64,000 bases of DNA. Source: Kitasatospora sp. NBC_00240 (GTDB taxonomy: Bacteria > Actinomycetota > Actinomycetes > Streptomycetales > Streptomycetaceae). The stretch lies in NCBI RefSeq assembly GCF_026342405.1, contig NZ_JAPEMU010000001.1:8556001-8620000 (forward strand), given 5' to 3'. Under the pieces are notes generated by a model, which saw only the letters and a program-made list of their open reading frames with translations, was not told where the DNA came from and did not search any database. Made by a program: the position numbers and the translations under genes. Position 1 is the stretch's first letter, and every line of letters begins with the position of its first letter. Shown here one piece after another: positions 6,491-48,435 of the stretch.

Positions 6491-6529
6491 CGAACCGAGT
6501 CGTGACCATCGTTCCTGATTGAACCGGCT

Positions 6530-6562
6530 GTCCGCACGGACCGACTCCTGGTCCGTGCGGAC
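6530..6562 (+). terminator. terminator after GH27
   Basis: A perfect 13-bp inverted repeat (GTCCGCACGGACC, loop GACTCCT, complement) begins 40 bases after the GH27 stop. Confidence 0.85.
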
Positions 6563-7006
6563 GCCGGGTCACTGGACAAGTGGGCCTGCTGGGAAGCGTC
6601 TTGGACATCGCCGTCGGCCAGGCGCGATCACTCAGGCTGGTAAACGACCGGGGTGGGAGGACAAGCGTGGATGGTTCCCACGTTCACGCATTGTCGATCA
6701 GCCCGTGAGGCGCCCCGGGACCAGATCGGACCGGAGTCCCCGCCCCGGGGAGCGGCCCGCGGGCGCTGCCGCCACTGCGGTGACGTGCGACGTCCGACCG
6801 GGTAGCGGGGGCGTGGCCGGCCCAGCATCCGGGGCCGGCCGACGCATTGTACGCCGGCGCCGACGAGGCTCAGCTCCCGGTGACAATGTTCACACGTCGG
6901 TTGGAACGGTGCTTCGCTCCGCCCCTTGCAGCGGCGACCGCGGATCGTGAAGGGTTGGTGGCGCCCGCCGCTCTCAGGTGGGTACTGACCGACCAGGTGA
7001 GGAACC
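6563..7006. other. 444-bp spacer without recognisable gene
   Basis: Open frames here do not resemble known proteins and lack consistent codon bias. The segment presumably carries the promoter of the downstream ABC ATPase gene, whose GGTGAGG ribosome binding site lies at its end. No clear operator was seen. Confidence 0.5.
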
Positions 7007-8236: not shown

Positions 8237-9283
8237 TCACCTGCAGGGGGCGCCGGAGCTCCGCCAGGTGTTGGCGTCGAGCATGGTGGTGGTCGCGAGG
8301 GCCTCGACAGGGAACGGCCTGCCGTTCTTGAGCTTGTCGTACATCGTCCGGACGGCCAGGGCGCCAACGTCTCTGCCGTTGATGAAGAGGGCATCCCTCA
8401 TCCCGGCGGGCTTGCTGCCGCTCCAGTCCTTGCAGGCGAGGTAGCCGCCCAGGCCGACGCCTATGACGTTGTCGGAGCTCAGACCGGCATTCTGGAGGGC
8501 GGTCATGGCACCGCGGACGTTCTCGTCGTTGCACCCCCAGACCACCCAGTGTTTGACGCCGACGCCGTCCACCACGATTCGCGACGCGACCTTGAGCTGA
8601 GCGCCCCGCAGGGTGTTGTCCGTACCGACGTCGAAGGAACGGACCCTGTCGGCTACTTGCTCGAAGGCGCGGCTCGCTGCGTTGATGCGCTCCCGGCAGA
8701 CGTTCACGTCCTGCTGCCAGGCGTACACGATCCGGGTGTCGCCGGGTGTCCAGCCCGCCTTCCGGTACTCCTCGCCCGCGCGCGTACCGACCTGGGCGCC
8801 CATCTGCTCCCCGCTGAAACCCACCCTGGGTACCAGGTTCTGACGCGAGCAGACACTCGGGTCCGGAAGGTCGGTGCAGATCTGGTCGTCGGAGGCGAGA
8901 AGCGCCACCCCGGCCTTCCGGGCGGTCATGGCGAACTCAGGACCGATCGCCGGATCGGGTGCGACGACTATCACCCCCGCCGTCCTGTCGGCGATCGCGG
9001 AGTGCAGCGCACCGAGTGCCTTCGTGGCGTCACTGCCCACGTCCACCACGGTCAGACCGATCCCGAGTGCGGCGGCCTCGGCCTTGGCGCCGGCCGCCTC
9101 GTCGACGAAGTACTCCTGGTCGCCCTGCTTCTGCAGGTAGGTGATCGAGATCTGCGCGGAGGCGGGAGGCACCCGGCCACCGGAGTCGGCCGACCCCTGG
9201 CCGACGGAACACCCGGTGAGCAGCCCGGCCGCGAGGAGAAGGCGGGTGGGGGCGGCGAGGTGCCCGGCACGGTGGTGGAACAT
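8237..9283 (-). CDS. orphan AraF-like sugar-binding lipoprotein (paralogue of the 47.4-kb araF)
   Basis: 348 residues, exactly the length of the AraF-like protein at 47389-48435 and clearly its paralogue. Both have a lipobox (LLTGCS here), the shared start ISITYLQKQGDQEYFV, the AraF signature KHWVVWGCNDEN and the same set of extra cysteines. It is a periplasmic-binding-protein-type extracellular lipoprotein that would capture L-arabinose or a similar pentose. No permease or ATPase gene of this family adjoins it, so it may feed the AraGH complex encoded 36 kb away or act in sensing. The ATG at 9283 is chosen because AGGAG lies 8 bases upstream and a signal peptide follows at once; longer in-frame starts have no such support. 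Confidence 0.85.
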   Translation of the reverse strand: MFHHRAGHLAAPTRLLLAAGLLTGCSVGQGSADSGGRVPPASAQISITYLQKQGDQEYFVDEAAGAKAEAAALGIGLTVVDVGSDATKALGALHSAIADRTAGVIVVAPDPAIGPEFAMTARKAGVALLASDDQICTDLPDPSVCSRQNLVPRVGFSGEQMGAQVGTRAGEEYRKAGWTPGDTRIVYAWQQDVNVCRERINAASRAFEQVADRVRSFDVGTDNTLRGAQLKVASRIVVDGVGVKHWVVWGCNDENVRGAMTALQNAGLSSDNVIGVGLGGYLACKDWSGSKPAGMRDALFINGRDVGALAVRTMYDKLKNGRPFPVEALATTTMLDANTWRSSGAPCR

Positions 9284-14874: not shown

Positions 14875-16268
14875 GGGGTGCTGTGCACGGTCTTGTCCGC
14901 GCCGACGGCCGACGAGACCCCGTCGTCGTAGGCGCCGGCGGCCTGGGCGACGGAACTCTGACCGGTGGTCACCGCCTCCATGGCCTTCTGGATGGCGCTG
15001 GACACCTGGGTGTAGGCGGGGAGGCCCGGACGGTAGTAGGTGGAGGCGACCAGCGCGCTGAAGAACTCGTTGGTCGGCAGCGCCTTGAGGTAGGAGGGGT
15101 CGGCGGCCACGTCCTTGCGGACGGCGATGGTGGCGTTCACGCTGTTCCACGCGGCGGAGGCGGACTCGGTCTCCAGCGACTGGAGGAACTTCCAGGCCAG
15201 ATCCGGATTCTTGGCCTTGGCCGGGATCGACCAGGCCCAGCCACCGGACATGCTGACCTTGCCGGGGGCCTGGCCGTTCTGCGTCGGCATCGCCGCCATG
15301 CCCATGGTCGACTCCCACTCCGGCCACGGCTGGGGGCCGGTCCTGATCCAGTTGTTGGGCATCCAGGAGCCGTCGATGTCCATGGCGAGCTTGCCCTGCG
15401 GGATGAGCTGGGTGGCCACCGCGGAGGCGAAGTCGGTGCCCAGTGCCTGCTGCGCGGAGGGGGCGAGGCCCTGGCTGTAGACGGTGTGCACGAAGTCGAG
15501 CGCGTCCTTGAAGCTCTGGCTGCCGACGACCCACTTCTGCTGCCCGGCGTCGTACAGCGCGCTGTTGGCGGCGGGTGTTCCGTACAGGAGCATCTCGAAG
15601 CCCTGCATGGAAGACTGCTCACCGCCGGCGATGCCGGTGTAGAGGTTGAGCGGGGTCACCCCGGGGGCCTTGGCCTTGATCGTCCTGGCCGCGGCGAGCA
15701 CGTCGTCCCAGGTCTTCGGCTGCCAGGGCACGGGCAGGCCGGCCCGGGTGAAGATCTCCTTGTTGTACCAGATGCCACGGGTGTCGGTGTTGTCGGGAAC
15801 CCCGTAGGTCTTGCCGTCGGCGGCGTACTTCATCGCGGCCTTGGCCGGATCGGCGTACTGGCTCCAGTCGGGCCATGAGCCGAGGTAGCCGTCCAGCGGT
15901 CTGAGGTAACCGGCAGCCACGTCCGAGTTGATGATCGCGGTGTCCTCGTAGACCAGGTCGGGCGCGGTCGCGGGGGAGCGCATCATCAACTGGATCTTGG
16001 TGTAGTAGTCGTTCTCGGCGGCCGTGACCGGGATGAGCTTGACCGTGGTGCCCGGATTCGCCTTCTCGAACGCGGTGACCATGGGGTCCAGGTAGTTGGC
16101 CTGCACCTTGTTGCTGTTGTTCAGCTGCTGCTGGTAGACGACCTTGATCGTCTTCTCGGAGCCGCCCTGGCCGGAGTCCGAGCCGGACTTCGACCCGGAG
16201 CCGCAGCCCGACGCGGTGGACACCAGGGCGACTGCGACGCCGATGGCACCGAGAAGTGCTTTCCGCAC
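14871..16268 (-). CDS. sugar ABC transporter substrate-binding lipoprotein (CUT1)
   Basis: 465 residues. A lipoprotein signal peptide with Cys22 in STASGCGSGS is followed by a Ser/Gly linker and a MalE-like bacterial extracellular solute-binding domain type 1 (IKVVYQQQLNNSNKV, AFEKANPGTTVKLIPV, GIWYNKEIFTRAGLP, GKLAMDIDGSWMPNNW). It would bind an oligosaccharide; linkage to GH38 suggests an alpha-mannoside. The GTG start has GGAGG upstream. It is the first gene of the operon, divergent from the ROK regulator gene, with a palindrome near its promoter at 16315. Confidence 0.9.
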   Translation of the reverse strand: MRKALLGAIGVAVALVSTASGCGSGSKSGSDSGQGGSEKTIKVVYQQQLNNSNKVQANYLDPMVTAFEKANPGTTVKLIPVTAAENDYYTKIQLMMRSPATAPDLVYEDTAIINSDVAAGYLRPLDGYLGSWPDWSQYADPAKAAMKYAADGKTYGVPDNTDTRGIWYNKEIFTRAGLPVPWQPKTWDDVLAAARTIKAKAPGVTPLNLYTGIAGGEQSSMQGFEMLLYGTPAANSALYDAGQQKWVVGSQSFKDALDFVHTVYSQGLAPSAQQALGTDFASAVATQLIPQGKLAMDIDGSWMPNNWIRTGPQPWPEWESTMGMAAMPTQNGQAPGKVSMSGGWAWSIPAKAKNPDLAWKFLQSLETESASAAWNSVNATIAVRKDVAADPSYLKALPTNEFFSALVASTYYRPGLPAYTQVSSAIQKAMEAVTTGQSSVAQAAGAYDDGVSSAVGADKTVHSTP

Positions 16269-16314
16269 GCTGAACCTCCAGGGGTGGGGACGCTACTGTC
16301 GGGGCCGAAACTAA

Positions 16315-16325
16315 ATCCAATGGAT
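16315..16325. promoter_or_regulatory. candidate ROK repressor operator
   Basis: ATCCAATGGAT is a perfect 5-1-5 inverted repeat in the 145-bp gap between the divergent ABC/GH38 operon and the ROK gene, within an AT-richer patch (CTAAATCCAATGGATGGACT). Position and symmetry fit an operator for the adjacent repressor; no binding data are implied. Confidence 0.5.
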
Positions 16326-16413
16326 GGACTAAGTCAACGCTCCGGGCCTGTAGACTTCCGCTGCGACCGGTGCGCATCAGGCCTGTGCGCAGGGGCAGAG
16401 GAAAAGAGCAGCG

Positions 16414-17649
16414 GTGACGCAGGGCGGAACGAATCTTCCCCGGGTCGGGGGCTACAACCAGGCTGTCGTCCTGGACGCGATCCGCACCGCGGGCCCGGTG
16501 AGCCGGGTCGAACTCGCCCCGCTCACCGGGCTGACCAGCCAGACCGTCTCGAACGTGGTCAGGCGGTTGCTGGACGCCGGACTGGTCGCCGAGTCCGGGC
16601 AGGCCCCCTCCGGCGGCGGCAAGCCGCGGACCCTGCTGTCGCCGCGCGCGGACGGCGCCTACGCACTGGGTGTGCAGCTGGACCCGGACGTCGCCGTGGT
16701 CGTGCTGGTGAACCTCGTCGGTGAGGTGGTCGCGAGCAGGAGGCTGCGCCTGACCAGCCCCAGCGACCCGGCGGACGTGGTGGCGCGGGTGGCGGGCGCG
16801 GCGCGACGGCTCGCCGGCGGATCCGGGGTCGACCCCGCCCGGCTGCTCGGCACCGGCATCGCCACCCCCGGCCCGATCGACGGCCCGGCCGGCGCCGTCG
16901 TCTCCCCGCCGAACTTCTCCGGCTGGGGCCGGGTACCGCTGCTGCAGATGTTCGGCGTGGCCACCGGCATGCCGGTGGCCATGGACAACGACGCCACGGC
17001 GGCCGCCATCGGCGAACGCTGGATCGGCGGCAGGGCCCGCACCGGCAGCTTCCTCTTCATCTACCTGGGCACCGGTGTCGGCGCCGGCATCGTCCTCGAC
17101 AACACCGTCCTGCACGGGGATTCCGGCAACGCGGGCGAGTTCGGCCACATGGCCGTCGAGCCCGGTCCGCTGGTCTGCCACTGCGGTGGCACCAACTGCC
17201 TGGGGCCCTACGTCACGCCGGCCGCCGTCATCGCCGACCTCCTGGAGCGGCACGGCCGGGCCGCCGCGACACGCATCGGCGTGACCGGTGCCCCCGAGGC
17301 GCTGCACGAGGACTGGAAGGCGCTGCGCCAGGCCGTCCGCCGGGACGATCCTGCCGCCGGCGACGCGATCCGCAAGGCCGCGCGACTGGTGGGCCAGGCC
17401 GTCCGGGGCGCGGTCTCGCTGCTGGACGTGAGCCGCGTGGTGCTGGGCGGCGGGGCCCTGCGCGGCATCGAGTCCATCATGTGCGAAGAGGTCGACACGG
17501 CGGTCAACAGGATGGCGAACGCCACCCGTACCGTCGCCGTCGAGAAGAGCGTGATCGGCGACGCCGTGGGCGCGGTCGGCGCCGCGTCGCTCATCCTGCA
17601 CGGCAACTACGCCCCCGGCTGGGGCATGCTCACCGAACAGTCCCCCTGA
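16414..17649 (+). CDS. ROK-family transcriptional regulator (NagC/XylR type)
   Basis: 411 residues. An N-terminal winged helix-turn-helix (about 12-65, SRVELAPLTGLTSQTVSNVV) is fused to a ROK sugar-kinase-like domain with DNDATAAAIGE and the zinc-binding CHCGGTNC motif. The residues after the last Cys (LGPY) differ from the usual CxE, and catalytic kinase function is not expected. It is divergent from the ABC/GH38 operon, so it probably represses that operon until a mannose-type sugar binds. The GTG start follows a purine-rich AGAGGAAAAGAG stretch. Confidence 0.9.
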   Translation: MTQGGTNLPRVGGYNQAVVLDAIRTAGPVSRVELAPLTGLTSQTVSNVVRRLLDAGLVAESGQAPSGGGKPRTLLSPRADGAYALGVQLDPDVAVVVLVNLVGEVVASRRLRLTSPSDPADVVARVAGAARRLAGGSGVDPARLLGTGIATPGPIDGPAGAVVSPPNFSGWGRVPLLQMFGVATGMPVAMDNDATAAAIGERWIGGRARTGSFLFIYLGTGVGAGIVLDNTVLHGDSGNAGEFGHMAVEPGPLVCHCGGTNCLGPYVTPAAVIADLLERHGRAAATRIGVTGAPEALHEDWKALRQAVRRDDPAAGDAIRKAARLVGQAVRGAVSLLDVSRVVLGGGALRGIESIMCEEVDTAVNRMANATRTVAVEKSVIGDAVGAVGAASLILHGNYAPGWGMLTEQSP

Positions 17650-32470: not shown

Positions 32471-33400
32471 ATGACACTGGAGGCCTCACCTTTGGACGAC
32501 CTTCGCACCCGCCTCGCCACCGTGATCGCGATCCCGGTGACCCCCTTCACCGCCGACGGCGACGTGGACCGGGACAACCACACGGCGCTGGTCCGCCGGC
32601 TGGTCGAGCACGGGGTGCGGGTGGTCACCCCCAACGGCAACACGGGCGAGTTCTACGCACTCGGCCGGGCGGAGGCCCGGCTGGCCGTGGAGTCGACCGT
32701 CGCGGCGGTCGCGGGCCGGGCGGAGGTGATGGCGGGCGTCGGCCTGGACACGGCGGGAGCGATCGCCGCCGCCCGGCACGCCCGCGAGGCGGGAGCGGGC
32801 TCGATCATGGTGCACCAGCCCGTCCACCCCTACCGCTCCGCGGCGGGCTGGATCGACTACCACCGGGCGATCGCGGATTCCGTGCCCGAACTCGGCGTCG
32901 TCCTCTACGTCCGCGACGAGCGCGTGAGCGGCGAGCAGATCCGGACACTCGCCGACCACTGCGCGAACGTGGTCGGCGTGAAGTACGCCGTCCCCGATCC
33001 GGTGCGCTTCGCCTCCGTGGCACGGGACGCGGGCCTGGAGCGGTTCACCTGGATAGCCGGCCTGGCCGAGCTGCACGCCCCCGGCTACTGGGCGACCGGC
33101 GCGACCGGCTTCACCTCGGGCCTGGTCAACGTGGTCCCACGGTTGTCGCTCGCCCTGCTGGAAGCCCTGCGTGGCGGCGACTACCCGAAGGCGATGCTGG
33201 TGTGGGAGTCGGCGCGGCTCTTCGAGGAGTTGCGCGCCGCCGACGCGTCCGCCGACAACGTCAGCGTGGTCAAGGAGGCGTTGGAGCAGCTCGGCCTGAG
33301 CCGACGGGCGGTGCGGCCGCCGTCGCGGACCCTGCCGAAGGCGGTCCGCGACGACATCGGCGAACTGATCACCCGGTGGCGGACGGAGGGCTGGCTGTGA
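32471..33400 (+). CDS. DHDPS/NAL-family aldolase or dehydratase (2-keto-3-deoxy-sugar-acid type)
   Basis: 309 residues forming a class I lyase barrel: start VIAIPVTPFTADGDVD, the GxxGE-like TPNGNTGEFYAL motif, and Schiff-base Lys171 in VVGVKYAV. The family includes dihydrodipicolinate synthase, KDG aldolase, 5-dehydro-4-deoxyglucarate dehydratase and L-2-keto-3-deoxyarabonate dehydratase. The following gene encodes an IlvD/Edd dehydratase and a semialdehyde dehydrogenase gene is next, so dehydration of 2-keto-3-deoxyarabonate (or xylonate) to 2-oxoglutarate semialdehyde fits best, with KDG/KDGal aldolase as the alternative. It differs clearly from the second family member at 37776. The stop overlaps the next start (GTGA). 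Confidence 0.82.
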   Translation: MTLEASPLDDLRTRLATVIAIPVTPFTADGDVDRDNHTALVRRLVEHGVRVVTPNGNTGEFYALGRAEARLAVESTVAAVAGRAEVMAGVGLDTAGAIAAARHAREAGAGSIMVHQPVHPYRSAAGWIDYHRAIADSVPELGVVLYVRDERVSGEQIRTLADHCANVVGVKYAVPDPVRFASVARDAGLERFTWIAGLAELHAPGYWATGATGFTSGLVNVVPRLSLALLEALRGGDYPKAMLVWESARLFEELRAADASADNVSVVKEALEQLGLSRRAVRPPSRTLPKAVRDDIGELITRWRTEGWL

Positions 33401-35175
33401 AGGCGCACCGGGCCCCGGGGGTCGAGGACGGGAGCGGGCCGGGGAGGCCGCTGCGCAGTGCGGCCTGGTTCGGCAGCGCCGACGACGCCACCGGCGGTGG
33501 CCTGCGGACCTTCAGCCACCGCTCACGGATGCGGCAGCTCGGCTACCTTCCCGAGGAGCACCTGGGCAAGCCGGTCGTCGCGATCCTCAACACCTGGTCC
33601 GACATCAACCCCTGTCACATGCACCTGCGGGAACGGGCCGAGCAGGTCAAGCGGGGCGTCTGGCAGGCCGGCGGGTTCCCGCTGGAGTTCCCCGTCGCGA
33701 CCCTCTCGGAGACCTTCCAGAAGCCCACGCCCATGCTGTACCGGAACCTGCTGTCCATGGAGACGGAGGAACTGCTGCGGTCCTACCCCGTGGACGGCGC
33801 GGTGCTGATGGGCGGGTGCGACAAGACCGTACCCGCGCTGCTCATGGGCGCCGCGAGTGCCGGACTGCCGGCCCTGGTCGTCCCGTCCGGACCCATGCTG
33901 CGCGGCCACCACCGGGGGAAGACCCTGGGGAGCGGCACCGATCTGTGGGCCTACTGGGACGAGTACCGGGCCGGACGGATCGGCGAGTGCGAGATGTCGC
34001 AGGTCGAGTGCGGCCTGGCGCGTTCGCCCGGCCACTGCATGACCATGGGCACCGCCTCCACGATGACCGCTGCCGCCGAGGCCCTGGGCATGGCGCTGCC
34101 CGGCTCCTCCGCCATTCCCGCGGTGGACTCGGCCCATCACCGGATGGCGGCGGCGGCAGGGCGGCGGATCGTCGGTCTCGTCGAGGAGGACATCACCCCG
34201 GCCGTGGTGATGACCCGGGAGGCGTTCGAGGACGCCGCCGCCACCGTGCTCGCACTGGGCGGCTCCACCAACGCCCTCATCCACCTGACAGCCATGGCCG
34301 GACGGCTCGGCGTCCCCTTCTCCCTGAAGGACTTCGACGCCATCGGCCGCCGGGTCCCGGTACTCGCGGACGTCCGTCCGGTGGGCCGGTACCTGATGGA
34401 GGACTTCTACTACGCGGGCGGACTCCCCGCCCTGCTGAGGCAGTTGAACGAAGTCCCGGGAGCACTGCATCCGGGCCGGATCACGGTCGCCGGTCACCCC
34501 TTCGCCGGCTACTTCGCGGACGCCGAGATCCACGGGCCGGCCATCCGTACGCACGACAAGCCCCTCCACGAGGAGGGCGGCCTCGCCGTCCTGCACGGCA
34601 ACCTCGCCCCCGGCGGCGCGGTGATCAAGCACCTGGCCGCCACCCCGGAACTGCTGAGCCACACCGGTCCGGCCGTGGTCTTCGACTCCTACGCCGAGTT
34701 GAGCAAGGGCATCGACGATCCCGCCTTCGCCGTCACCAGGGACACCGTGCTGGTGCTGCGCGGCGCCGGCCCCCTCGGCGGACCTGGCATGCCCGAGTAC
34801 GGGATGCTCCCGGTGCCCGCCTACCTGTTGGAGCAGGGCGTCACCGACCTGGTGCGGATCTCGGACGCCAGGATGAGCGGTACCAGCTACGGCACCTGCG
34901 TCCTGCACATCGCCCCCGAGTCGCACGCGGGCGGCCCGCTGGCGCTGGTCCGCACCGGCGACCTGATCACCCTGGACGTCGGGCGTCGGCTTCTGCAACT
35001 GAACGTCGAACCGGCCGAGTTGGAGAGCCGTCGGCAGGCCTGGCGCCCGCCGGAGCCGGTGTCCACCCGCGGCTACGGCGCGCTCTACGGCCGGCACGTC
35101 ACCCAGGCCGACGAGGGCTGCGACTTCGACTTCCTCGCCTCGCCGGGTCTGAACGCGGTGCCCGATCCGCGCTGA
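33397..35175 (+). CDS. IlvD/Edd-family sugar-acid dehydratase (L-arabonate/D-xylonate dehydratase-like)
   Basis: 592 residues. Iron-sulfur cluster ligands are recognisable by family pattern: Cys73 (SDINPCHMH), Cys141 (GGCDKTVPAL) and Cys214 (GHCMTMGTAST). Other signatures are LGGSTNALIHL, LHGNLAPGGAVIK and the SDARMSGTSYGT motif. The length fits the aldonate dehydratase branch. It would convert an aldonate to its 2-keto-3-deoxy form for the DHDPS-like enzyme encoded just upstream. The GTG at 33397 overlaps the previous stop and has GGACGGAGGG upstream. A bidirectional terminator separates it from the convergent dehydrogenase gene. The exact sugar acid (arabonate, xylonate, galactonate) is inference. 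Confidence 0.87.
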   Translation: MKAHRAPGVEDGSGPGRPLRSAAWFGSADDATGGGLRTFSHRSRMRQLGYLPEEHLGKPVVAILNTWSDINPCHMHLRERAEQVKRGVWQAGGFPLEFPVATLSETFQKPTPMLYRNLLSMETEELLRSYPVDGAVLMGGCDKTVPALLMGAASAGLPALVVPSGPMLRGHHRGKTLGSGTDLWAYWDEYRAGRIGECEMSQVECGLARSPGHCMTMGTASTMTAAAEALGMALPGSSAIPAVDSAHHRMAAAAGRRIVGLVEEDITPAVVMTREAFEDAAATVLALGGSTNALIHLTAMAGRLGVPFSLKDFDAIGRRVPVLADVRPVGRYLMEDFYYAGGLPALLRQLNEVPGALHPGRITVAGHPFAGYFADAEIHGPAIRTHDKPLHEEGGLAVLHGNLAPGGAVIKHLAATPELLSHTGPAVVFDSYAELSKGIDDPAFAVTRDTVLVLRGAGPLGGPGMPEYGMLPVPAYLLEQGVTDLVRISDARMSGTSYGTCVLHIAPESHAGGPLALVRTGDLITLDVGRRLLQLNVEPAELESRRQAWRPPEPVSTRGYGALYGRHVTQADEGCDFDFLASPGLNAVPDPR

Positions 35176-35360: not shown

Positions 35361-36857
35361 TCAGAACCCCGTCAGGCGGGGGATTCCGAGGGGATTCCCG
35401 TCCTGGAGCTCGGGCGGGAGCAGCTCCGCCGGCCAGTTCTCGTAGGCGACGGGTGTGAGCCATCGGTCGACGGCGGTGGCGCCGACGGAGGTGTGCCGGG
35501 CCGAGGTGGTGGCGGGCCAGGGGCCTCCGTGGTGCATCGCCGCGCACACCGCGACCCCGGTGGGCCAGCCGTTGTGGACGAGGCGACCGGCCGTGCGGCG
35601 CAGGACGGTGGCGAGCAGGGCCACCTCGGCGTGCTCACCGGGGGAGGCGTGGATGCTGCCGGTGAGGGTGCCGCCCAGGGCTTCCAGGACGGGGAGGAGG
35701 TCACGCACCTCACGGTAGGTGACGACCAGCCCGGCCGGCCCGAAGCACTCCTCGCGCAGGTCCTCCAGGCGTTCGGCGAAGGAGGCCAGCGGTAGCTGCC
35801 AGATCCTGGGGGTCACCGCCCACTCGCCCTGGGCCGCTGCGCCCGAGGCGAGCGGGACGAGCCCTGGCGTCGCGTCCAGCTCGGCCACCCGGTGTCGGTA
35901 GGAGTCCCGGATCCGCCCCGTCAGCACGGGGCCGCCGCTGGTCCGCCCGACGGCGTCGGCGATCGCGGTGGCCAGGTCGCTGTCCTCGGGCAGGAACAGC
36001 AGCCCGGGATTGGTGCAGAACTGGCCGGTTCCCTGGGTCAACGAGGCGGCGTAGCCGCCGGCGATCTCGGCGGTGCGGTCCCGGGCGGCTGCCGGGAGCA
36101 CCACGACCGGGTTGATGCTGCCGAGTTCCCCGTAGAACGGGATCGGGTCCTCGCGGCCGGCCGCGAGGTCGAACAGTGCCCGCCCGCCGCGCAGTGAGCC
36201 GGTGAATCCCACGGCACGGACGGACGGGTGGCGTACGAGGGCGGGGCCGGCGTCGAAGCCCTGGACGAGGGAGAAGACGCCGGCCGGAAGCCCGGCCCGG
36301 GACAGCTCGCCGGAGATGACGGCCGCGACGGCGGCCGAGGTGGCGGGGTGACCTTCGTGGGCCTTGACCAGGACGGGGCATCCGGCGGCCAGCGCCGATG
36401 CGGTGTCACCCCCGGCCACCGAGAAGGCGAAGGGGAAGTTGCTGGCGCTGAACACGGCGACCGGGCCGACGGGCAGCAGCATCCGGCGGATGTCGCCCCG
36501 TCCGGTCGAGGCGTCCGCGGGTGTGAGGATCGCCCCGACGTGGTCACCCTGGCGCAGCACTCGTGCGAACATCCTGAGCTGGCCGGTGGTCCGGGCCACT
36601 TCGCCGGTCAGCCGGGGCCTGCCCAGCGCCGTCTCGGCGTCCGCGACGTCCACCAGGTCGGTGGCGGCCGCGTCGAGGGCGTCGGCCACGGCGTCGAGTA
36701 CGTCGGCCCGGCGCCGTGCCGGCAGGCCGGACCACACCGGGAACGCGTCCCTTGCCGCGTGGACCGCCTGTTCCAGTGCTTCCGGTGTCGTGGTGGGGAA
36801 CGCCGGGCCGGTCGGGCTGCCGGTACGGGGGTCGTATCCCTGGATCGTGGTGGTCAC
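35361..36857 (-). CDS. aldehyde dehydrogenase, 2-oxoglutarate semialdehyde dehydrogenase type
   Basis: 498 residues with the ALDH fold: cofactor region FSASNFPFAFSVAGGDTASALAAG, Glu244 (FYGELGSINPVV) and catalytic Cys281 (GTGQFCTNPGLL). The sequence follows the NADP-dependent 2,5-dioxovalerate (KGSADH) group that oxidises 2-oxoglutarate semialdehyde to 2-oxoglutarate, the common last step of oxidative uronate, arabinose and xylose routes. The GTG start overlaps the stop of the uronate dehydrogenase gene (GTGA), so the two are translationally coupled. It would serve the KdgD route and probably the neighbouring IlvD route too. Confidence 0.9.
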   Translation of the reverse strand: MTTTIQGYDPRTGSPTGPAFPTTTPEALEQAVHAARDAFPVWSGLPARRRADVLDAVADALDAAATDLVDVADAETALGRPRLTGEVARTTGQLRMFARVLRQGDHVGAILTPADASTGRGDIRRMLLPVGPVAVFSASNFPFAFSVAGGDTASALAAGCPVLVKAHEGHPATSAAVAAVISGELSRAGLPAGVFSLVQGFDAGPALVRHPSVRAVGFTGSLRGGRALFDLAAGREDPIPFYGELGSINPVVVLPAAARDRTAEIAGGYAASLTQGTGQFCTNPGLLFLPEDSDLATAIADAVGRTSGGPVLTGRIRDSYRHRVAELDATPGLVPLASGAAAQGEWAVTPRIWQLPLASFAERLEDLREECFGPAGLVVTYREVRDLLPVLEALGGTLTGSIHASPGEHAEVALLATVLRRTAGRLVHNGWPTGVAVCAAMHHGGPWPATTSARHTSVGATAVDRWLTPVAYENWPAELLPPELQDGNPLGIPRLTGF

Positions 36858-37657
36858 GGTGTGATCTCCGCATCGAGTTCGGGCGAGCAGAACGTGCCGC
36901 CCAGGTAGACGTTGTCGAGTCCGTCGGCGGGTTCACCGTCGAGGCCGGCGGCGTACTGCTCGGCGTCGTCCCGCGGCCGGTAGCCGAGCTCGTGGGCCTC
37001 GGCGAGGGAGAACCAGCGCCTGGTGTTGGCGGACACTCCCCATGCGACGCGGAATCCCGGCGCGGGTGCGGTGAGTGCGGCCTCCAGCAGACGCGCGCCG
37101 TCGTCGGGCGAGAGCCAGGTGGCCAGCTGGCGCGGGAGGGAGGGCTTCTCCCGGCAGGCGCCGATGCGCAGGCAGATCACGTCCAGCCCGTACCGGTCGT
37201 GGTAGAGGCTGCCGAGGGCCTCCCCGGCGGCCTTGCTCACCCCGTAGAAGGTGTCGGGCCTGGGGAAGAGGTAGTCGGGCACCTCGGAGGCCTGGCGGGG
37301 ATGGAAGCCGACGGCGTGGCTGCTGCTTGCCAGGATCACCCGGGGTACGCCGGATCGTCGGGCTGCTTCGAGGACAACGTAGGTGCCGTGGATGTTGGTC
37401 TCCAGGATCTGTTCCCACGGTCCTTCGGTGCTGAGCCCGCCGAGGTGGATCAGGGCGTCCGCGCCTTCGCACGCTCTCTCCATGGCGGGGAGGTCGGCCA
37501 CCGATGCCTGGACGGTGTCCACGTCCTCGTCGGGGTCGGGGGGCGCGAGCGGCGCGATGTCGACCAGTCGCAGGGACCGGCCGGGGCGGGCGAGCCGGGG
37601 TCGCATGAGACGGCCCATGCCTCCCGCGGCCCCGGTGAGCACGATGCGTTCCGGCAT
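36854..37657 (-). CDS. udh: uronate dehydrogenase (NAD-dependent, SDR/epimerase family)
   Basis: 267 residues. NAD-binding motif GAAGGMG (9-15); HLGGLSTEGPWEQILETNI and SSSHAVGFHP are characteristic of uronate dehydrogenases; active-site Tyr138-x3-Lys142 (YGVSK). The enzyme oxidises D-galacturonate or D-glucuronate to the aldaric acid lactone, the first step of the oxidative route. Its substrate could come from the GH28 enzyme at 27.7 kb. The ATG at 37657 gives the glycine motif at the right distance; a longer reading extends through the promoter and is rejected. It is divergent from kdgD-gudD, with a 16-bp palindrome in between. Confidence 0.88.
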   Translation of the reverse strand: MPERIVLTGAAGGMGRLMRPRLARPGRSLRLVDIAPLAPPDPDEDVDTVQASVADLPAMERACEGADALIHLGGLSTEGPWEQILETNIHGTYVVLEAARRSGVPRVILASSSHAVGFHPRQASEVPDYLFPRPDTFYGVSKAAGEALGSLYHDRYGLDVICLRIGACREKPSLPRQLATWLSPDDGARLLEAALTAPAPGFRVAWGVSANTRRWFSLAEAHELGYRPRDDAEQYAAGLDGEPADGLDNVYLGGTFCSPELDAEITP

Positions 37658-37775: not shown

Positions 37776-38699
37776 ATGCTCGAAGGTCTGCAGTTCTTTC
37801 CGGTGACGCCGTTCACACCGGCCGGCACCATCAACCCGGAGGTGTTCGCCGAGCACGTGCGGACCGGCCTCGACGACGGAGCCGGTGGCGTCTTCGTGGC
37901 CTGCGGAACGGGTGAGTTCCACGCACTCTCCCTCGACGAGTACGTCCAACTGGTGCACATCGCGGTCGAGGTGACGAACGGACGGGTCCCGGTCTTCGCC
38001 GGCACCGGTGGGCCCCTGCCGATGGCGCAGCAGTTCGCACGGGCCGCACTGGTCGCGGGCGCCGACGGCCTGCTCCTGCTGCCGCCCTACCTGGTCCAGG
38101 CGCCCCCGGCCGGCCTCGTCGCCTACACCGAGGCCGTCGCGTCGGCCACCGAGCTGCCTCTGATCGTCTACCACCGTGGAGCCGCGCGCTTCGACGTCGA
38201 GTCCGCCGTCGCGGTGGCCCGGCTGCCTCAGGTCGTCGGACTGAAGGACGGCTTCGGCGACCTCGAACTGCTCTCCCGCATCGTCCTGGGAATCCGCTCC
38301 GCGCTCGAAGGAACCGGCAAGCCCTTCCTCTTCTTCAACGGGCTCCCCACCGCCGAGGCGACCGTGCCCGCCTACCGGGGCATCGGTGTCGAGCTGTACT
38401 CCTCCGCCGTGTTCTGCTTCGCCCCCGAGATCTCCATGGCCTTCCACCAGGCCGTCACCAAGGGCGACCGGGCGTTCGCCGAGCGCCTGCAGCAGGAGTT
38501 CTTCCATCCCCTCGTCGCGCTGCGCGATCGCGTCCCCGGGTACGCCGTCTCCCTCGTCAAGGCAGGCGTCCGCCGGCGCGGCCTCGACGTGGGAGGAGTC
38601 CGGGCACCCCTCGTCGACCCGTCCCCGGAGCACCTGGAGGCCCTCCAGCGCCTCACCGACAACGGGCTCGCCATCTGCGCCGGGAAGGCCGCCCGATGA
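37776..38699 (+). CDS. kdgD: 5-dehydro-4-deoxyglucarate dehydratase (KdgD)
   Basis: 307 residues, DHDPS/NAL family. The KdgD pattern is clear: FFPVTPFT, GVFVACGTGEFHALSLDEY, LLLPPYLVQAP, Schiff-base Lys157 (VVGLKDGFGDLELL), FFNGLPTAEA, YSSAVFCF and RDRVPGYAVSLVKAGVR. It converts 5-keto-4-deoxyglucarate to 2-oxoglutarate semialdehyde with loss of CO2 and water. It is the first gene of a four-gene chain in which every junction overlaps by 4 bases. ATG 37776 is preferred; an in-frame GTG at 37764 is the alternative, because the AGGAG at about 37760 is rather far from the ATG. Confidence 0.92.
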   Translation: MLEGLQFFPVTPFTPAGTINPEVFAEHVRTGLDDGAGGVFVACGTGEFHALSLDEYVQLVHIAVEVTNGRVPVFAGTGGPLPMAQQFARAALVAGADGLLLLPPYLVQAPPAGLVAYTEAVASATELPLIVYHRGAARFDVESAVAVARLPQVVGLKDGFGDLELLSRIVLGIRSALEGTGKPFLFFNGLPTAEATVPAYRGIGVELYSSAVFCFAPEISMAFHQAVTKGDRAFAERLQQEFFHPLVALRDRVPGYAVSLVKAGVRRRGLDVGGVRAPLVDPSPEHLEALQRLTDNGLAICAGKAAR

Positions 38700-39964
38700 G
38701 CGACGCGATCCTGATCACCGACGTCACGATCACCCCCGTCGCCTTCCGCGATCCCGCGCTGCTCAACGCCGTCGGCGTGCACGAGCCGTACGCCCTGCGC
38801 GCCGTCGTCGAGATCTCCACCGACCAGGGCATCACCGGCCTCGGGGAGACGTACGCCGACGAGGGCCACCTACGCCGACTGCGACAGGCCGCGGAGGCCC
38901 TCACCGGGATGGACGTCTACGCCCTGGGCGCCATGAACCGGCGCCTCGTCGACCTCCTGAACGGGGAGACCGGCGCCGACGGGCACGGACTCACCGGCAT
39001 GATCACCTCCAGCGGCACGGTCGACCGGGTCTTCTCACCCTTCGAGGTCGCCTGCCTGGACATCCAGGGCAAGGCCGCCGGCCGCCCGGTCTCCGACCTG
39101 CTCGGCGGCGCCGTGCGTGACCGCGTCCCGTTCAGCGCCTACCTCTTCCACAAGTGGCGCGGACATCCCGGAGCCGAGGACGACCTCTGGGACGAGGCGC
39201 TGACCCCCGACGGCATCGTCGCCCAGGCCCGCCGCATGGTCGACACCTACGGCTTCACGGCGATCAAGCTCAAGGGCGGCGTCTTCCCCCCGGACCAGGA
39301 GATCGAGGCGATCAGGGCCCTGCGCGAGGCCTTCCCGGCCCTCCCGCTGCGCCTGGACCCGAACGCCGCCTGGAGCGCCGAGACCGCGATCAGGGTCGGG
39401 CGCGAACTCGACGGGGTGCTGGAGTACCTGGAGGACCCCACACCCGGCCTCGGGGACATGGCCCGGGTGGCCCGCGAAGTGCCCATGCCCCTGGCGACCA
39501 ACATGTGCGTCGTCGGCTTCGAACACCTGGCCCCCGCCGTCGAGCAGGGCTCCGTCCGCATCGTCCTCTCCGACCACCACTACTGGGGCGGGCTGCACCG
39601 CTCGAAGCTGCTGGCCGGCATCTGCGACACCTTCGGCATGGGACTCTCCATGCACTCCAACTCCCATCTGGGCATCAGCCTCGCCGCCATGGTCCACCTG
39701 GCGGCCGTGACACCGAATCTCACCTACGCCTGCGACACCCACTGGCCGTGGAAGACCGAGGACGTCATCGAGCCCGGCGCGCTCGCCTTCGAGAACGGCG
39801 CGGTGCGGCCCCCGCAAGGACCGGGCCTGGGCGTCGAACTCGACCGGGACGCCCTCGCGCGCCTGCACGAGCAGTACCTCCGCTGCGGAATCCGCAACCG
39901 TGACGACACCGGGTACATGCAGCGCGTGGTCCCCGGCTGGACCAAGAGGATTCCCCGCTGGTGA
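38696..39964 (+). CDS. gudD: glucarate/galactarate dehydratase, enolase superfamily (GudD-like)
   Basis: 422 residues. Enolase-superfamily barrel with catalytic Lys191/Lys193 (AIKLKGG), metal ligands Asp221 (LRLDPNAAW) and Glu246 (EYLEDP), followed by DHHYWGGL, and the GudD-type base His320 (MHSNSHLG). The N-terminal capping domain is present. It dehydrates D-glucarate (or galactarate) to 5-keto-4-deoxyglucarate, linking uronate dehydrogenase to KdgD. The ATG overlaps the kdgD stop (ATGA). Galactarate as well as glucarate must be considered because the likely input is galacturonate. Confidence 0.9.
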   Translation: MSDAILITDVTITPVAFRDPALLNAVGVHEPYALRAVVEISTDQGITGLGETYADEGHLRRLRQAAEALTGMDVYALGAMNRRLVDLLNGETGADGHGLTGMITSSGTVDRVFSPFEVACLDIQGKAAGRPVSDLLGGAVRDRVPFSAYLFHKWRGHPGAEDDLWDEALTPDGIVAQARRMVDTYGFTAIKLKGGVFPPDQEIEAIRALREAFPALPLRLDPNAAWSAETAIRVGRELDGVLEYLEDPTPGLGDMARVAREVPMPLATNMCVVGFEHLAPAVEQGSVRIVLSDHHYWGGLHRSKLLAGICDTFGMGLSMHSNSHLGISLAAMVHLAAVTPNLTYACDTHWPWKTEDVIEPGALAFENGAVRPPQGPGLGVELDRDALARLHEQYLRCGIRNRDDTGYMQRVVPGWTKRIPRW

Positions 39965-41190
39965 CCGCTCACGCCGGACCCTCCCGCCCGACCGCCCCCT
40001 CGACCCGGGCGGTGGGCTACGCCTACCCCTGGGACTTCCACGGCGACCCGGCCGCGGCCCACCGGGCCCGCGCCCTGGGGCTCGACGCCGTCGCCGTCGC
40101 CGCCGCCTACCACTCCGTGCGCTCGGCGAGCCCCCTCCACCCGGCCCGGCGCCTCACCGAAGTACCCCACGCCGCCTCGTACGTGCCCGTACGGGAGGAC
40201 GTCTGGCGCGGACGCCGGCTGCGCCCCGCCCCGGCGGGGTGGCTCCCCTCGGCCGACCCCTTCGGTGACGCCTGCCGCGCCCTGCACGGGGTCGGCCTCG
40301 ACGTCTACGCCTGGACGGTTCTCACCCACAACAGCCACCTCGGCCGGTCGCACCCCGATCTGACCGTCCGCAACGCCTACGGAGAGCACTACTCCTACGC
40401 CCTGTGCCCCTCGTGGGACGAGGTCACCGACTACTGCGTCACCCTGGTGGGCGAAGTCGTGGAGAACGGCCGTCCCGACGGCCTGGTCCTGGAGGCCTGC
40501 GGCCCGCTCGGGGCCGTCCACGGCAGCCACCACGACAAGGCCGGTCTCGCCGGGTGGAGCACCACGGACCAGCAACTGCTGTCGCTGTGCTTCTGCGACG
40601 CGTGCGGGCGCCGGTACACCGGCGCCGGTCTCGATCCCGCGCACGTCGCCGCCCGGGTGCGGAGCGCCGTCGGGCGCCCCGGACCGGCCGACAGCGTGGA
40701 GGACGTGCTGGGCCTCGAGGTGGCCCACGCGCTCCGAGCGGTCCGGGGAACGACGGTCGGCCGGCTGGGTACCGCGGCCGCCGAGCGGGCGCGCGCCGCC
40801 GACCCCGGCGTTCGCCTCGTGCTGCACGCGGCTCCCGACCCGTGGGCGACCGGAGCCTTCGCCGCCGTGGGCTCCGTCCCCCTGCCACCGGTGGACGTCC
40901 TCGTGGCGTCCTGCTGGGATCCGGGGCCGGCGGGGGAGACGGCCCTGCGCGGCCTGCGTGCGCTGGCCGGCCCGGGTACCGCCGTCGGCGGGTACCTCCA
41001 GGCCGACAGCACCTGGGGAGCGGACGGCGTGGCGGACCGCGTGGCCCGGTACCGTGCGGCGGGTATGGAGGAGCTTCACCTCTACCACCTCGGTCTGGTC
41101 GGTGACGAAGGGCTCCGGCTGATGGCCGCCATCCTTGCCGCCGCGGGCCTTCCCGCGGATCGCGGCGCGGGGCCCCGGCCGGAGGTCTGA
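39961..41190 (+). CDS. uncharacterised protein of the aldarate operon, possible TIM-barrel glycoside-hydrolase-like fold
   Basis: 409 residues, no signal peptide. I do not recognise a named family. It begins with a sugar-lyase-like pattern (VGYAYPWDFHGDPAAAHRA, LGLDAVAVAAAYHS), then YAWTVLTHNSHLGRSHPD, NAYGEHYSYALCPSWDEV, GLVLEACGPLG and LCFCDACGRRY. The layout (barrel strands with His and Asp at their ends, LCPS block, V(L)E block, C-F-C-x2-C) recalls the hypothetical glycosyl hydrolase (GHL) proteins. The cysteine cluster might bind a metal. The GTG start overlaps the gudD stop (GTGA), so it is co-translated with the aldarate genes and probably acts on a uronate-containing oligosaccharide or a related intermediate. 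Function unknown. Confidence 0.75.
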   Translation: MTAHAGPSRPTAPSTRAVGYAYPWDFHGDPAAAHRARALGLDAVAVAAAYHSVRSASPLHPARRLTEVPHAASYVPVREDVWRGRRLRPAPAGWLPSADPFGDACRALHGVGLDVYAWTVLTHNSHLGRSHPDLTVRNAYGEHYSYALCPSWDEVTDYCVTLVGEVVENGRPDGLVLEACGPLGAVHGSHHDKAGLAGWSTTDQQLLSLCFCDACGRRYTGAGLDPAHVAARVRSAVGRPGPADSVEDVLGLEVAHALRAVRGTTVGRLGTAAAERARAADPGVRLVLHAAPDPWATGAFAAVGSVPLPPVDVLVASCWDPGPAGETALRGLRALAGPGTAVGGYLQADSTWGADGVADRVARYRAAGMEELHLYHLGLVGDEGLRLMAAILAAAGLPADRGAGPRPEV

Positions 41191-41231: not shown

Positions 41232-42746
41232 CTACGCGGACGCGGTCACGGGCCGGCCCTGGGCCGGGCGTTCGGCTACGGCGTCCCCGGAGATCGCGGC
41301 GACCAGGTCGTCGGCGGAGCGCTGGGGCTCCGGCGAGAGGAGCCCGACCAGGACGAAGACCACCAGCGAGGTCAGCAGCGGAGTGGCGATGACGGACGTC
41401 TGGTCGGTGCTGCCGTGCACGTACTTGACGAAGACGTAGGCGGCGAGACCGAGGGACCAGGAGGCGAGTGCGGCCCGGGGACCGCAGCGGCGGAAGGCGG
41501 GGAGCATGCCGAGCAGCATCGGGATGGAGATCGGTCCCATGACCGCCGCCACCAGGCCGACGATGATCCCCAGCACGCCGCCGAAGTGGCCGGCCTCGAT
41601 CGCGACGAGCATGCTCAGGGTGATGAAGACCACCGTGGCGGCACGGGCGGTGAACAGGCCCGCCCGGACGTCCATCGTCCTGGCACGCCGTGAGAGGGCG
41701 GGCAGGATGTCGCGGGTGACGACGGCGGAGACGGCGTTCGCGTCGGACGAGGCCATGGCCATGGTGTGCGAGAACATGCCGGCCAGGCTGAGGCCGACGA
41801 GTCCGGTGGGCAGGAGCGACTCGGACATGAGGGCGTAGACCTGCTGGGGGTTGGCCACGTGGGGCATCACCAGCGGGGCCACGACGGAGGGGAAGAGCAG
41901 GACGGCCGGCCAGACGAGGTAGAGGACCGCCGAGAGCGCGGCGGAGCGGCGGGCGGCTCGCGGCGACTCGGTGGCCATGTAGCGCTGGGCGAGGTTCCAC
42001 ATGCCGCCGTTGTACTCGAAGAACTTCACGATGATGTAGGTGCCGAGGAAGGCGGTGGTGTACGGGCCCACCAGCGGGTGGGTGTGCGTGGCGGGCAGTC
42101 TGCCCCACAGGGTGCCGAGTGCGGACAGGCCGCCGAGGCGGCCGACGACCGCGACCACCATCGCGAGGGCGGCGACGCCCTGGATGACGAACTGGCCGAA
42201 GTCGGTGAGTGCGTCGGCCCACAGGCCGCCGACCGTGCAGTACAGCAGGGTGACCAGACCGGTGGTCAGGATTCCCACGTTCATCGGGAGGCCCGTGAAG
42301 ACGTTCAGGAGGATGGCCACGGACGCCCACTTCGCCGCGACGTCGAAGATCTTGAGCAGGGCGCCGCTCCAGGCCAGCGCCTGTTGGGTCGCGACGTTGT
42401 AGCGCTTGGCCAGGAACTCCAGGGGTGAGGCGACGGCGTAGCGCAGGCGGAGGCGGTTCCAGCGCGGGGCGAAGAGAAAGGCGCCGACCCCGGTGGCCAG
42501 GGCCAGCGGAAGGAAGGCCCAGATGTAGATCGTGATGCCGTAGTTGTATCCGACGGCGGCGTACGCGACGAACACGGCCGCGCTGTAGCCGGACATGTGG
42601 TGGGAGATCCCGGAGAGCCACCAGGGCATGCGCCCGCCGCCGGTGAAGTAGTCGCTGACGCTGCTGACGCGCCGGTGCGACCAGAGCCCGATGAGCAGCA
42701 TCACAAGGAAATAGCCGCCGAGGGTGGTCCAGTCGAGCCAAAGCAT
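41232..42746 (-). CDS. sodium:solute symporter (SSS family)
   Basis: 504 residues with about 13 membrane segments. SSS-family features include the early LWSHRRVSSVSDYFTGGGRMPWW stretch (part of it, DYFTGGG, is the best marker), FVAYAAVGYNYG, and a sodium-site-like region around SDANAVSAVVTRDI. It would import an organic solute with sodium. It lies between the convergent kdgD operon and a divergent PucR-type regulator gene, so a uronate, aldarate or other sugar acid is the likely cargo. The start at 42746 has GAGGAG upstream. The short gap to the convergent gene (41191-41231) has no obvious strong terminator. Confidence 0.88.
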   Translation of the reverse strand: MLWLDWTTLGGYFLVMLLIGLWSHRRVSSVSDYFTGGGRMPWWLSGISHHMSGYSAAVFVAYAAVGYNYGITIYIWAFLPLALATGVGAFLFAPRWNRLRLRYAVASPLEFLAKRYNVATQQALAWSGALLKIFDVAAKWASVAILLNVFTGLPMNVGILTTGLVTLLYCTVGGLWADALTDFGQFVIQGVAALAMVVAVVGRLGGLSALGTLWGRLPATHTHPLVGPYTTAFLGTYIIVKFFEYNGGMWNLAQRYMATESPRAARRSAALSAVLYLVWPAVLLFPSVVAPLVMPHVANPQQVYALMSESLLPTGLVGLSLAGMFSHTMAMASSDANAVSAVVTRDILPALSRRARTMDVRAGLFTARAATVVFITLSMLVAIEAGHFGGVLGIIVGLVAAVMGPISIPMLLGMLPAFRRCGPRAALASWSLGLAAYVFVKYVHGSTDQTSVIATPLLTSLVVFVLVGLLSPEPQRSADDLVAAISGDAVAERPAQGRPVTASA

Positions 42747-47388: not shown

Positions 47389-48435
47389 TCAGCTGCAGGT
47401 GACTCCGGCGCTCTTCCAGGTGGTGGCGTCGACCATGGTGGTGGGCGCGAAGGCCTCGGCCGGGAAGTCCTTGCTGTTCTTGAGCTTGTCGTACATGGTC
47501 TGGACGGCCAGCGCGCCGACGTCCTTGCCGTTGATGAACAGCGCGGCCTTCATGCCCGAGGGCTTGTCACCGCTCCAGTTCTTGCACGCCAGGTAGGCAC
47601 CGAGGCCGACACCGATCACGTTGTCCGCCGAGACGCCCGCGTTCTGCAGGGCCGTCACACCGCCCTGGACGTTCTCGTCGTTGCAGCCCCACACCACCCA
47701 GTGCTTCACACCCTGGTTGGCGGTCACCGTCGCGGCGATCTTGTCCTGCGCACCGGTCGGCGTGTTGTCCGTCGCCACGTCGATGTTCTGCACACCCGGG
47801 ACGGCCCCGTTGAAGGCGTCCTTCGCGGCCTTCACGCGGTCCCCGCAGACCGTCACGTCCTGCTTCCAGGCCGAGACGATCCGGGTGTCGGCGGCCGACC
47901 AGCCGGCCTTCTTGTACTCCTCGGCCGCGCGCTTGCCGACCTCGCCGCCCATCTGGGCACCGCTGAAGCCGATCCGCGGCACCAGGCTCTCCTTCGCACA
48001 GGAGGACGGGTCCGGGCCGGTCGCACAGATCTGGTCGTCGGAGGTCAGCAGCGCGACCTTGGCGTCCTTGGCGGTCTGCACGACCTGCGGGCCGACGGCC
48101 GGGTCCGGCACCACGATGATCACGCCGTTGGACTTCTGCGCGACCGCCGACTGCACCTCGCTGATCGTCTTGTTCGCGTCGTTGCCGAGGTTCACGACCT
48201 TCAGGTCCACCCCCAGCTCCGCGGCCTTCGCCTTCGCACCGGCCGCCTCGCCGACGAAGTACTCCTGGTCGCCCTGCTTCTGCAGGTAGGTGATCGAGAT
48301 CTTGCCGGAGACCGGCGCAACCGACGCGTCCGAACCGGACTTCGTCTCCTGACCGGTGGAGCAGGCGGTGGTCAGACCCAGGGCGAGCAGCAGGCCGGTC
48401 GCGGCGACGGCACGGCTGGTGATGGTGCGGAACAT
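47389..48435 (-). CDS. araF: L-arabinose-binding lipoprotein (AraF-like)
   Basis: 348 residues. Lipoprotein signal peptide with lipobox LTTACS; a type 1 periplasmic binding fold follows (ISITYLQKQGDQEYFV, GVIIVVPDPAVGP, LLTSDDQICA, VPRIGFSGAQMGGEVG, KHWVVWGCNDENVQGGVTA, VIGVGLGAYLAC). The segments TPDP..G, DDQ and KHWL..G.ND are those of E. coli AraF. It is first in the araFGH operon and has a close orphan paralogue at 8237-9283. The ATG at 48435 has AAGGAG upstream; longer in-frame readings are not supported. Confidence 0.9.
   Translation of the reverse strand: MFRTITSRAVAATGLLLALGLTTACSTGQETKSGSDASVAPVSGKISITYLQKQGDQEYFVGEAAGAKAKAAELGVDLKVVNLGNDANKTISEVQSAVAQKSNGVIIVVPDPAVGPQVVQTAKDAKVALLTSDDQICATGPDPSSCAKESLVPRIGFSGAQMGGEVGKRAAEEYKKAGWSAADTRIVSAWKQDVTVCGDRVKAAKDAFNGAVPGVQNIDVATDNTPTGAQDKIAATVTANQGVKHWVVWGCNDENVQGGVTALQNAGVSADNVIGVGLGAYLACKNWSGDKPSGMKAALFINGKDVGALAVQTMYDKLKNSKDFPAEAFAPTTMVDATTWKSAGVTCS

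Follow-up and report, generated by a model that had tools for sequence, protein, structure and literature searches.

A 64,000-nucleotide stretch of the Kitasatospora sp. NBC_00240 genome (contig NZ_JAPEMU010000001.1, positions 8,556,001 to 8,620,000, forward strand; hereafter the window) carries a gene whose 409-residue product is a glycoside hydrolase (GH)-like (beta/alpha)8-barrel protein of an unnamed family (39961-41190, + strand, GTG start). The gene is physically linked to gudD, which encodes a glucarate dehydratase-family protein, and its occurrence tracks that of udh, the uronate dehydrogenase gene. Pectin and other plant polymers contain uronic acids as their acidic sugars, and the protein is very probably a GH-fold enzyme of uronate entry. 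More specifically, and tentatively, we propose that it is a cytoplasmic exo-acting uronosidase that feeds Udh. Both the fold and the pathway have been described before, whereas neither the family nor its set of active-site residues has a name in the libraries searched.

Linkage to gudD and co-occurrence with udh

The stop codon of the window's gudD-like gene (38696-39964, +) shares four bases with the GTG start of the gene (GTGA, 39961-39964), as the first-pass annotation of this DNA had noted. This arrangement suggests translational coupling of the two genes, and AAGAGG at 39944-39949 could serve as the ribosome-binding site. The overlap is beyond chance, because an NTGA overlap of this type marks the start of 81 of the 107 relatives found directly 3' of gudD or kdgD on the same strand (gudD, 70 of 89; kdgD, 11 of 18). 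Linkage was counted in 169 of 260 loci, the others being for the most part short pieces from these same regions, and genes in these loci were named by blastp, tblastn or phmmer against window or locus proteins, in some cases by reading translations, and with Pfam for chosen representatives. The gene is present in 127 of the 169, with 125 copies at full length (two probably counted twice; the pairs L049/L225, L053/L228 and L103/L223 are probably the same contigs). For 113 of the 125, a distance of 10 kb or less separates the copy from gudD, from kdgD or from a further gene of the enolase type (MR_cl7, for which the top NCBIfam match is talarate/galactarate dehydratase, 126 bits against a cut-off of 500), and within that distance gudD accompanies 97 copies, udh 93, kdgD 92 and an aldehyde dehydrogenase gene 78. 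Most loci were found via the gene itself, and these counts therefore describe its surroundings and not how often it stands beside gudD. Co-translation and a conserved linkage to aldarate genes are both supported.

A survey that started from gudD gave a complementary picture. A gudD-like gene occurs in 53 of 296 genomes of the class, and 40 gudD loci were fetched, a selection that excluded nine other matches at 50% identity or more and a group at about 42-44%. Both udh and the gene were found in nine of these loci, udh only in six, the gene only in four, and neither in 21 (Fisher p 0.006, kinship ignored). Of the four loci with the gene only, two sit on contigs shorter than 4 kb; in L253 and L254, on long contigs, the gene occurs without a detected udh, and an SDR-type gene, recognised by eye, precedes gudD. 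Among 61 genomes (60 related genomes and the window's own), a udh-like gene is present in all 23 that hold a close copy (E 2e-40 or better; the copy in G005 is a fragment), versus 36 of the 61 overall (kinship ignored). The gene tracks udh and therefore goes with uronate entry, and not with glucarate use as such. We considered the 13 udh-positive genomes that lack the gene as a counter-set and set them aside: they mostly have a different udh-like gene, and in 12 of them the fetched stretch, which in L182 starts at a contig end, holds no kdgD, gudD or aldehyde dehydrogenase gene. The thirteenth, G015, has a broken-up locus in which a kdgD-gudD pair occurs without the gene.

Loci with divergent lower pathways help to place the gene further. 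Fourteen of the 127 gene-bearing loci contain gudD and udh but lack any kdgD with an identity of at least 42%; one of them, L114, does contain a kdgD-like gene of weaker similarity. Within the fetched stretches that were read, the L055 operon runs gudD, gene, udh, with a hydroxyacid-dehydrogenase-type reductase gene (by Pfam) and an aldolase-like gene upstream, and the 6.6-kb contig L063 carries gudD, the gene and udh between an HpcH/HpaI-type aldolase gene and a MOFRL-type (glycerate-kinase-like) gene. Retention of the gene where the steps after the ketodeoxyaldarate differ, as these loci seem to show, places its action upstream of that intermediate, either in the supply of free uronate or in the interval between Udh and GudD.

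An unnamed barrel family with a conserved pocket

The window protein has no match in Pfam apart from a single noise match (0.19), nothing in PADLOC, no NCBIfam family above its curated cut-off (a result shared by its relatives L037, L134 and L137), and no PDB sequence at 0.01, the best being 0.65. Profile searches of PDB sequences were marginal, with Cwp19 and glycogen debranching enzyme at 0.011 from 21 rows and weaker values from 82 rows, and in the openly licensed literature the gene is not named in the titles or abstract openings found. No clear match to a family of unrelated function emerged, and the suggestion of a possible new family holds. Relatives occur in 48 of the 61 genomes when the closer group and an approximately 30%-identical paralogue are counted together, and at least 564 were confirmed in a scan of named genomes. 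The best 80 of these were retained, and all are Actinomycetota by title except one in a Rhodanobacter-labelled metagenome bin (L071); when 296 genomes were sampled evenly across the phylum, only 12 gave a match. In a tree of 124 proteins, from which identical proteins had been removed, a starred branch separates 112 rows that include the window protein (clade A) from 12 others, a group for which the program warned of long branches meeting.

The first-pass annotation had also described signatures of a GHL-like barrel, and structure prediction agrees. The AlphaFold2 model (m058a1518485d, built with 82 relatives) is a (beta/alpha)8 barrel with pLDDT 93.9 and pTM 0.92, in which beta1 spans residues 16-21, beta3 114-120 and beta4 174-178, and the last element is a helix at 382-394. 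Its top Foldseek matches in the PDB are a GH151 fucosidase (6tvk, 1.3e-10), the C-terminal domain of PgaB (9e-10), Cwp19 (1e-9), beta-amylase and GH42-type beta-galactosidases (1kwg, 1.4e-7), with GH156 at 2.3e-6, query TM-scores of 0.47-0.55 and identities of at most 15%. VIA-align matched Cwp19 (Z 24.1, 3.2 Å, 293 residues aligned), GH151 6tvk (Z 23.7, 3.2 Å, 289), PgaB 4p7l (Z 23.2) and the GH42 structures 5xb7 (Z 22.7) and 1kwg (Z 21.5, 3.2 Å, 305), the alignments covering 289-314 residues with deviations of 3.1-3.6 Å. The 50 VIA-align matches listed do not include GH156, a point that we did not count. The paralogue L038 passes the gathering threshold of GHL10 (PF02638; 29.2 versus 27.9 bits) and L037 reaches 26.2 bits. 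The window protein itself gives no match to GHL10 or to GHL6 (PF14871, threshold 35 bits), and weak GHL6 matches were seen in five of 21 family members (best E 0.002).

Across 114 aligned members, H51, H123, N138, C149, E178, H187, H191, C210, C212 and C215 are invariant, as are a few further positions including Y50 and W118; D25 is Asp in 113 members, and two other histidines of the barrel mouth, H289 and H376, are kept in 104 and 108. D25 (codon 40033-40035, + strand, as for all codons given here) stands just after beta1 and is a candidate general base, and H123 (40327-40329), just after beta3, is a candidate general acid. E178 (40492-40494) ends beta4, at the position of a catalytic acid in related barrels, and the beta4 loop carries the H-x3-H pair H187-H191 (40519-40533). 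C149 (40405-40407) would be the first ligand of a putative structural zinc site completed by C210-F-C212-D-A-C215 (40588-40605), a C-x-C-x2-C arrangement that corresponds to the C-F-C-x2-C cluster already remarked upon in the first reading. That six pocket-type and four Cys positions are identical in all 114 members fits an enzyme.

Comparison with characterised barrels shows partial likenesses. With GHL10 and Cwp19 the window protein shares the barrel fold, in the predicted model, together with an acid at the end of beta4 and no acid on beta7, where Gly328 is reported for Cwp19 (PMC5765458). Unlike those proteins, it has Glu and not Asp on beta4, the four-Cys layout, a His-rich pocket, a place in a uronate operon and, by eye, no export signal. 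Its likeness to GH42 lies in the fold and in the order C...E...C-x-C-x2-C around the beta4 Glu, the metal itself being putative; a GH42 zinc cluster with a Cys4 layout is described in PMC8573354, and some GH42 members are without it. However, the NE of GH42 at beta4 is replaced by L177-E178 (L177 in 102 and E178 in all 114 members), the beta7 Glu nucleophile has no conserved counterpart in the family, and the window protein is a single domain. GH151, although the top Foldseek match, has as its catalytic acids an Asp on beta4 and a Glu on beta6 (PMC10154630), whereas our family has Glu178 on beta4 in every member and no conserved beta6 acid.

The GH156 sialidase EnvSia156 acts on sialic acid, an acidic sugar, by an inverting mechanism in which the base is Asp14 and the acid His134 (PMC6811678). 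Judged by the numbering and the secondary structure in that paper, these two residues would fall after beta1 and beta3, and the apparent correspondence with D25 and H123 is one of strand positions only. GH156 enzymes carry an Arg/Arg/Asn carboxylate triad. They also have a C-terminal beta-sandwich, which the window protein, ending at its last helix, is without, and no sequence match between the two was seen.

Candidate reactions and their weighing

We postulate that imported uronic-acid-containing di- or oligosaccharides or glycosides would be cleaved by the protein to free hexuronate, which Udh would oxidise to an aldarolactone; GudD would then dehydrate the aldarate, and KdgD with the aldehyde dehydrogenase would carry the product to 2-oxoglutarate. 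The chemistry would likely be single displacement (inverting), with D25 activating water and H123 or E178 protonating the leaving group, while R54, K193 and the conserved histidines may hold the acidic sugar and C149, C210, C212 and C215 a structural zinc. We favour a uronosidase because of the fold, the acidic-sugar precedent of GH156, the association with a CUT1-type permease, and the uronide-active GH types found in two udh loci that lack the gene, GH28 in L237 and GH88 in L234. The permease is present in 8 of 11 gene-bearing versus 8 of 26 gene-less survey loci of at least 10 kb (p 0.03, kinship ignored). Among the 93 loci with the gene that do not belong to the survey, 58 have it.

Several observations weigh against a uronosidase. 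No beta6 or beta7 strand column carries an acid in 40% or more of the 114 members (columns 313-317 and 341-347, respectively), and acids elsewhere are partial: D293, after beta5, in 86 members, D312 in 91, D355 in 89 and E371 in 99. Where it is present, D293 could be a second catalytic acid. With a first, poorer model, the top 50 matches did not include GH156. Six of the 15 udh-bearing gudD loci are without the gene, and L233, L235 and L242 among them have no GH28, GH88 or SGL types either; relatives of the L237 GH28 and L234 GH88 each occur in one of the 127 gene-bearing loci (L112, L071). PL1 is found in eight of 80 loci, and udh is a far more frequent companion of the gene than polysaccharidases are, which suggests a core pathway step. 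Its occurrence both with gudD and with MR_cl7 is odd for a linkage-specific glycosidase, and the importers are mixed (SSF in the window, MFS-like in L071). The earlier proposal of a glycosidase or lyase acting on uronate oligosaccharides is supported indirectly as regards a role with uronates, given that the gene tracks udh and is kept where no kdgD was detected; glycoside hydrolysis or elimination is a candidate chemistry, the usual second carboxylate not being conserved. A lactonase at the junction of Udh and GudD fits much of the same evidence.

Such a GH-fold lactonase, or lactone isomerase, would open the aldaro-1,5-lactone made by Udh and give GudD free aldarate, with D25, H123 and E178 activating water on the lactone carbonyl; it is the main rival, though we consider it rather unlikely, and about as unlikely that the barrel has become the dedicated aldarolactonase of oxidative uronate use in actinobacteria, covering the step from Udh to GudD with an Asp/His/Glu pocket. 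We know of no GH-fold lactonase and of no lactonase in which a pocket of this kind is familiar, and 1,5-lactones also open spontaneously. The gene nevertheless tracks udh and sits directly behind gudD, and UxuL (an SMP-30-type protein), UxuF and Gli hold the metabolic position that a lactonase would occupy here. The window protein matches no Pfam family of the Gli or UxuL kind, PF08450 (SMP-30/gluconolactonase) included. The product of Udh is an aldarolactone, on which other bacteria use Gli, UxuL or UxuF (PMC6353982, where a reference title presents Gli as a member of the amidohydrolase superfamily). The first-pass view that the chain from uronate to 2-oxoglutarate is complete without the gene is therefore only partly upheld: udh, kdgD, the gudD-like gene and an aldehyde dehydrogenase gene are all present, but Udh yields a lactone and no lactonase was recognised by Pfam or NCBIfam among the scanned genes at 33.4-44.5 kb of the window. 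In other contexts, too, relatives have genes of the dehydrogenase type close by (SDR in L134-L136, Gfo/Idh in L137), and a relative of the SGL-type lactonase of L230 occurs in one of the 127 gene-bearing loci, other lactonase types not having been searched. On the other hand, an MBL gene comes immediately after the relative in both L137 and L138, and the one in L137 has AHL lactonases as its nearest match (79 bits, below cut-off), beside which a lactonase role would be redundant; L233, L235 and L242 have udh with neither the gene nor SGL, and the gene without detected udh in L253 and L254 is likewise unfavourable, though tempered by their SDR-type gene. Replacement of the gene by an SGL lactonase was considered and dropped because only L230 supports it, SGL relatives occurring in one of 127 gene-bearing versus one of 42 other loci; L230 holds SDR and SGL genes by Pfam and, by eye, GSA-aminotransferase-, M81-, RidA- and D-serine-dehydratase-like genes.

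A mutarotase, epimerase or isomerase acting on free uronates or aldarates, and so admitting non-standard uronates to the Udh/GudD route, is an unlikely reading. It would suit the His-rich barrel mouth (H51, H123, H187, H191, H289, H376) with no conserved second carboxylate, as well as the several importer types found with the gene, but the nearest folds are glycoside hydrolases. That the protein is a lyase or hydratase for unsaturated uronosyl oligosaccharides we regard as improbable. With a vinyl-ether substrate, catalysis by a single acid would make sense, and pectinesterase and pectate lyase genes adjoin the gene in L024 and similar loci; the scarcity of PL1 noted above speaks against it, as does L234, which has GH88 and, by eye, KduI/KduD-looking genes but not the gene, and unsaturated-uronide products are expected to enter via KduI/KduD, a route covered in part by PMC6353982, and not via Udh. 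That the barrel is non-catalytic or regulatory, as the lack of a conserved beta6 or beta7 acid might suggest, is very improbable in view of the ten pocket-type and Cys positions that never vary. The observation that opened this analysis is confirmed, and the functional reading first attached to it is partly supported, with a uronosidase remaining the reading that we favour.

Genomic setting and significance

The genes around the one under study describe a uronate cluster. Ahead of gudD lies kdgD (37776-38699, +), encoding 5-dehydro-4-deoxyglucarate dehydratase, which scores 400 bits against an NCBIfam subfamily cut-off of 278 and 292 against an equivalog cut-off of 374, and matches 4ur7 in the PDB at 5e-54. 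In a divergent unit, udh (36854-37657, -) matches uronate dehydrogenase 3rft at 5e-62, its top NCBIfam hit being to a different model, below cut-off, and is accompanied by an aldehyde dehydrogenase gene (35361-36857, -; PF00171; 1eyy, 3v4c) that falls below all listed NCBIfam cut-offs and probably serves as 2-oxoglutarate semialdehyde dehydrogenase. The closest solved relative of the gudD-like product is 3vdg, a 'probable glucarate dehydratase' (7e-201), and its NCBIfam glucarate dehydratase score is 264 bits against a cut-off of 829. A sodium:solute symporter gene (41232-42746, -; PF00474) encodes a probable importer. The window also contains GH2, GH3, melibiase-type, GH31, GH59 and GH76 genes, together with a GH28 gene that scores best in NCBIfam against rhamnogalacturonidase (300 bits against a cut-off of 500); the setting is therefore one of plant-polymer use. 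Adjoining the uronate cluster is an overlapping pair (32471-35175, +) made up of another DHDPS-family gene and an arabinonate-dehydratase-like gene of the IlvD/EDD type, perhaps a parallel sugar-acid route, and two genes 38 kb apart (8237-9283 and 47389-48435, both -) have, by eye, near-identical N-terminal regions and look like duplicated sugar-binding proteins.

Variants of the locus were seen elsewhere. L184 (G005:C3:806500-826400) carries a decaying operon, with the symporter, aldehyde dehydrogenase and gene shortened and kdgD, udh and gudD looking full length, and L021 has two clade-A copies about 11 kb apart (5532-6713 and 15408-16628), one behind udh and an aldehyde dehydrogenase gene and the other behind kdgD-gudD. 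The approximately 30%-identical paralogue in the window's own genome, L037 (G000:C1:5208370-5209488, -), has no aldarate genes nearby and adjoins an ATPase-like gene, as does L038, and, by eye, a rhomboid-like gene; most same-genus genomes among the 61 have one copy of this type. Distant relatives beside SDR and RidA-like genes (L134-L136 and L071:18670-19839; L134 also has D-ser_dehydrat and amidohydrolase genes) represent a different catabolic context, and in L137 (9028-11827) and L138 (8820-11586, gene identities by similarity) they lie between a creatininase-family gene and the MBL gene, with a 4-base overlap with the latter.

The reaction, once named, would close a gap in the use of pectin and glucuronosyl sugars by soil bacteria. 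It would also establish a GH-like family as new, with active-site residues of an unusual kind, and provide a part for aldaric-acid production. In the sample of the class, nine of the 15 gudD loci with udh carry the gene; many other Actinomycetota have it as well, as does the single bin labelled Rhodanobacter. Because the gene is linked to udh, the question can be tested with a single purified protein.

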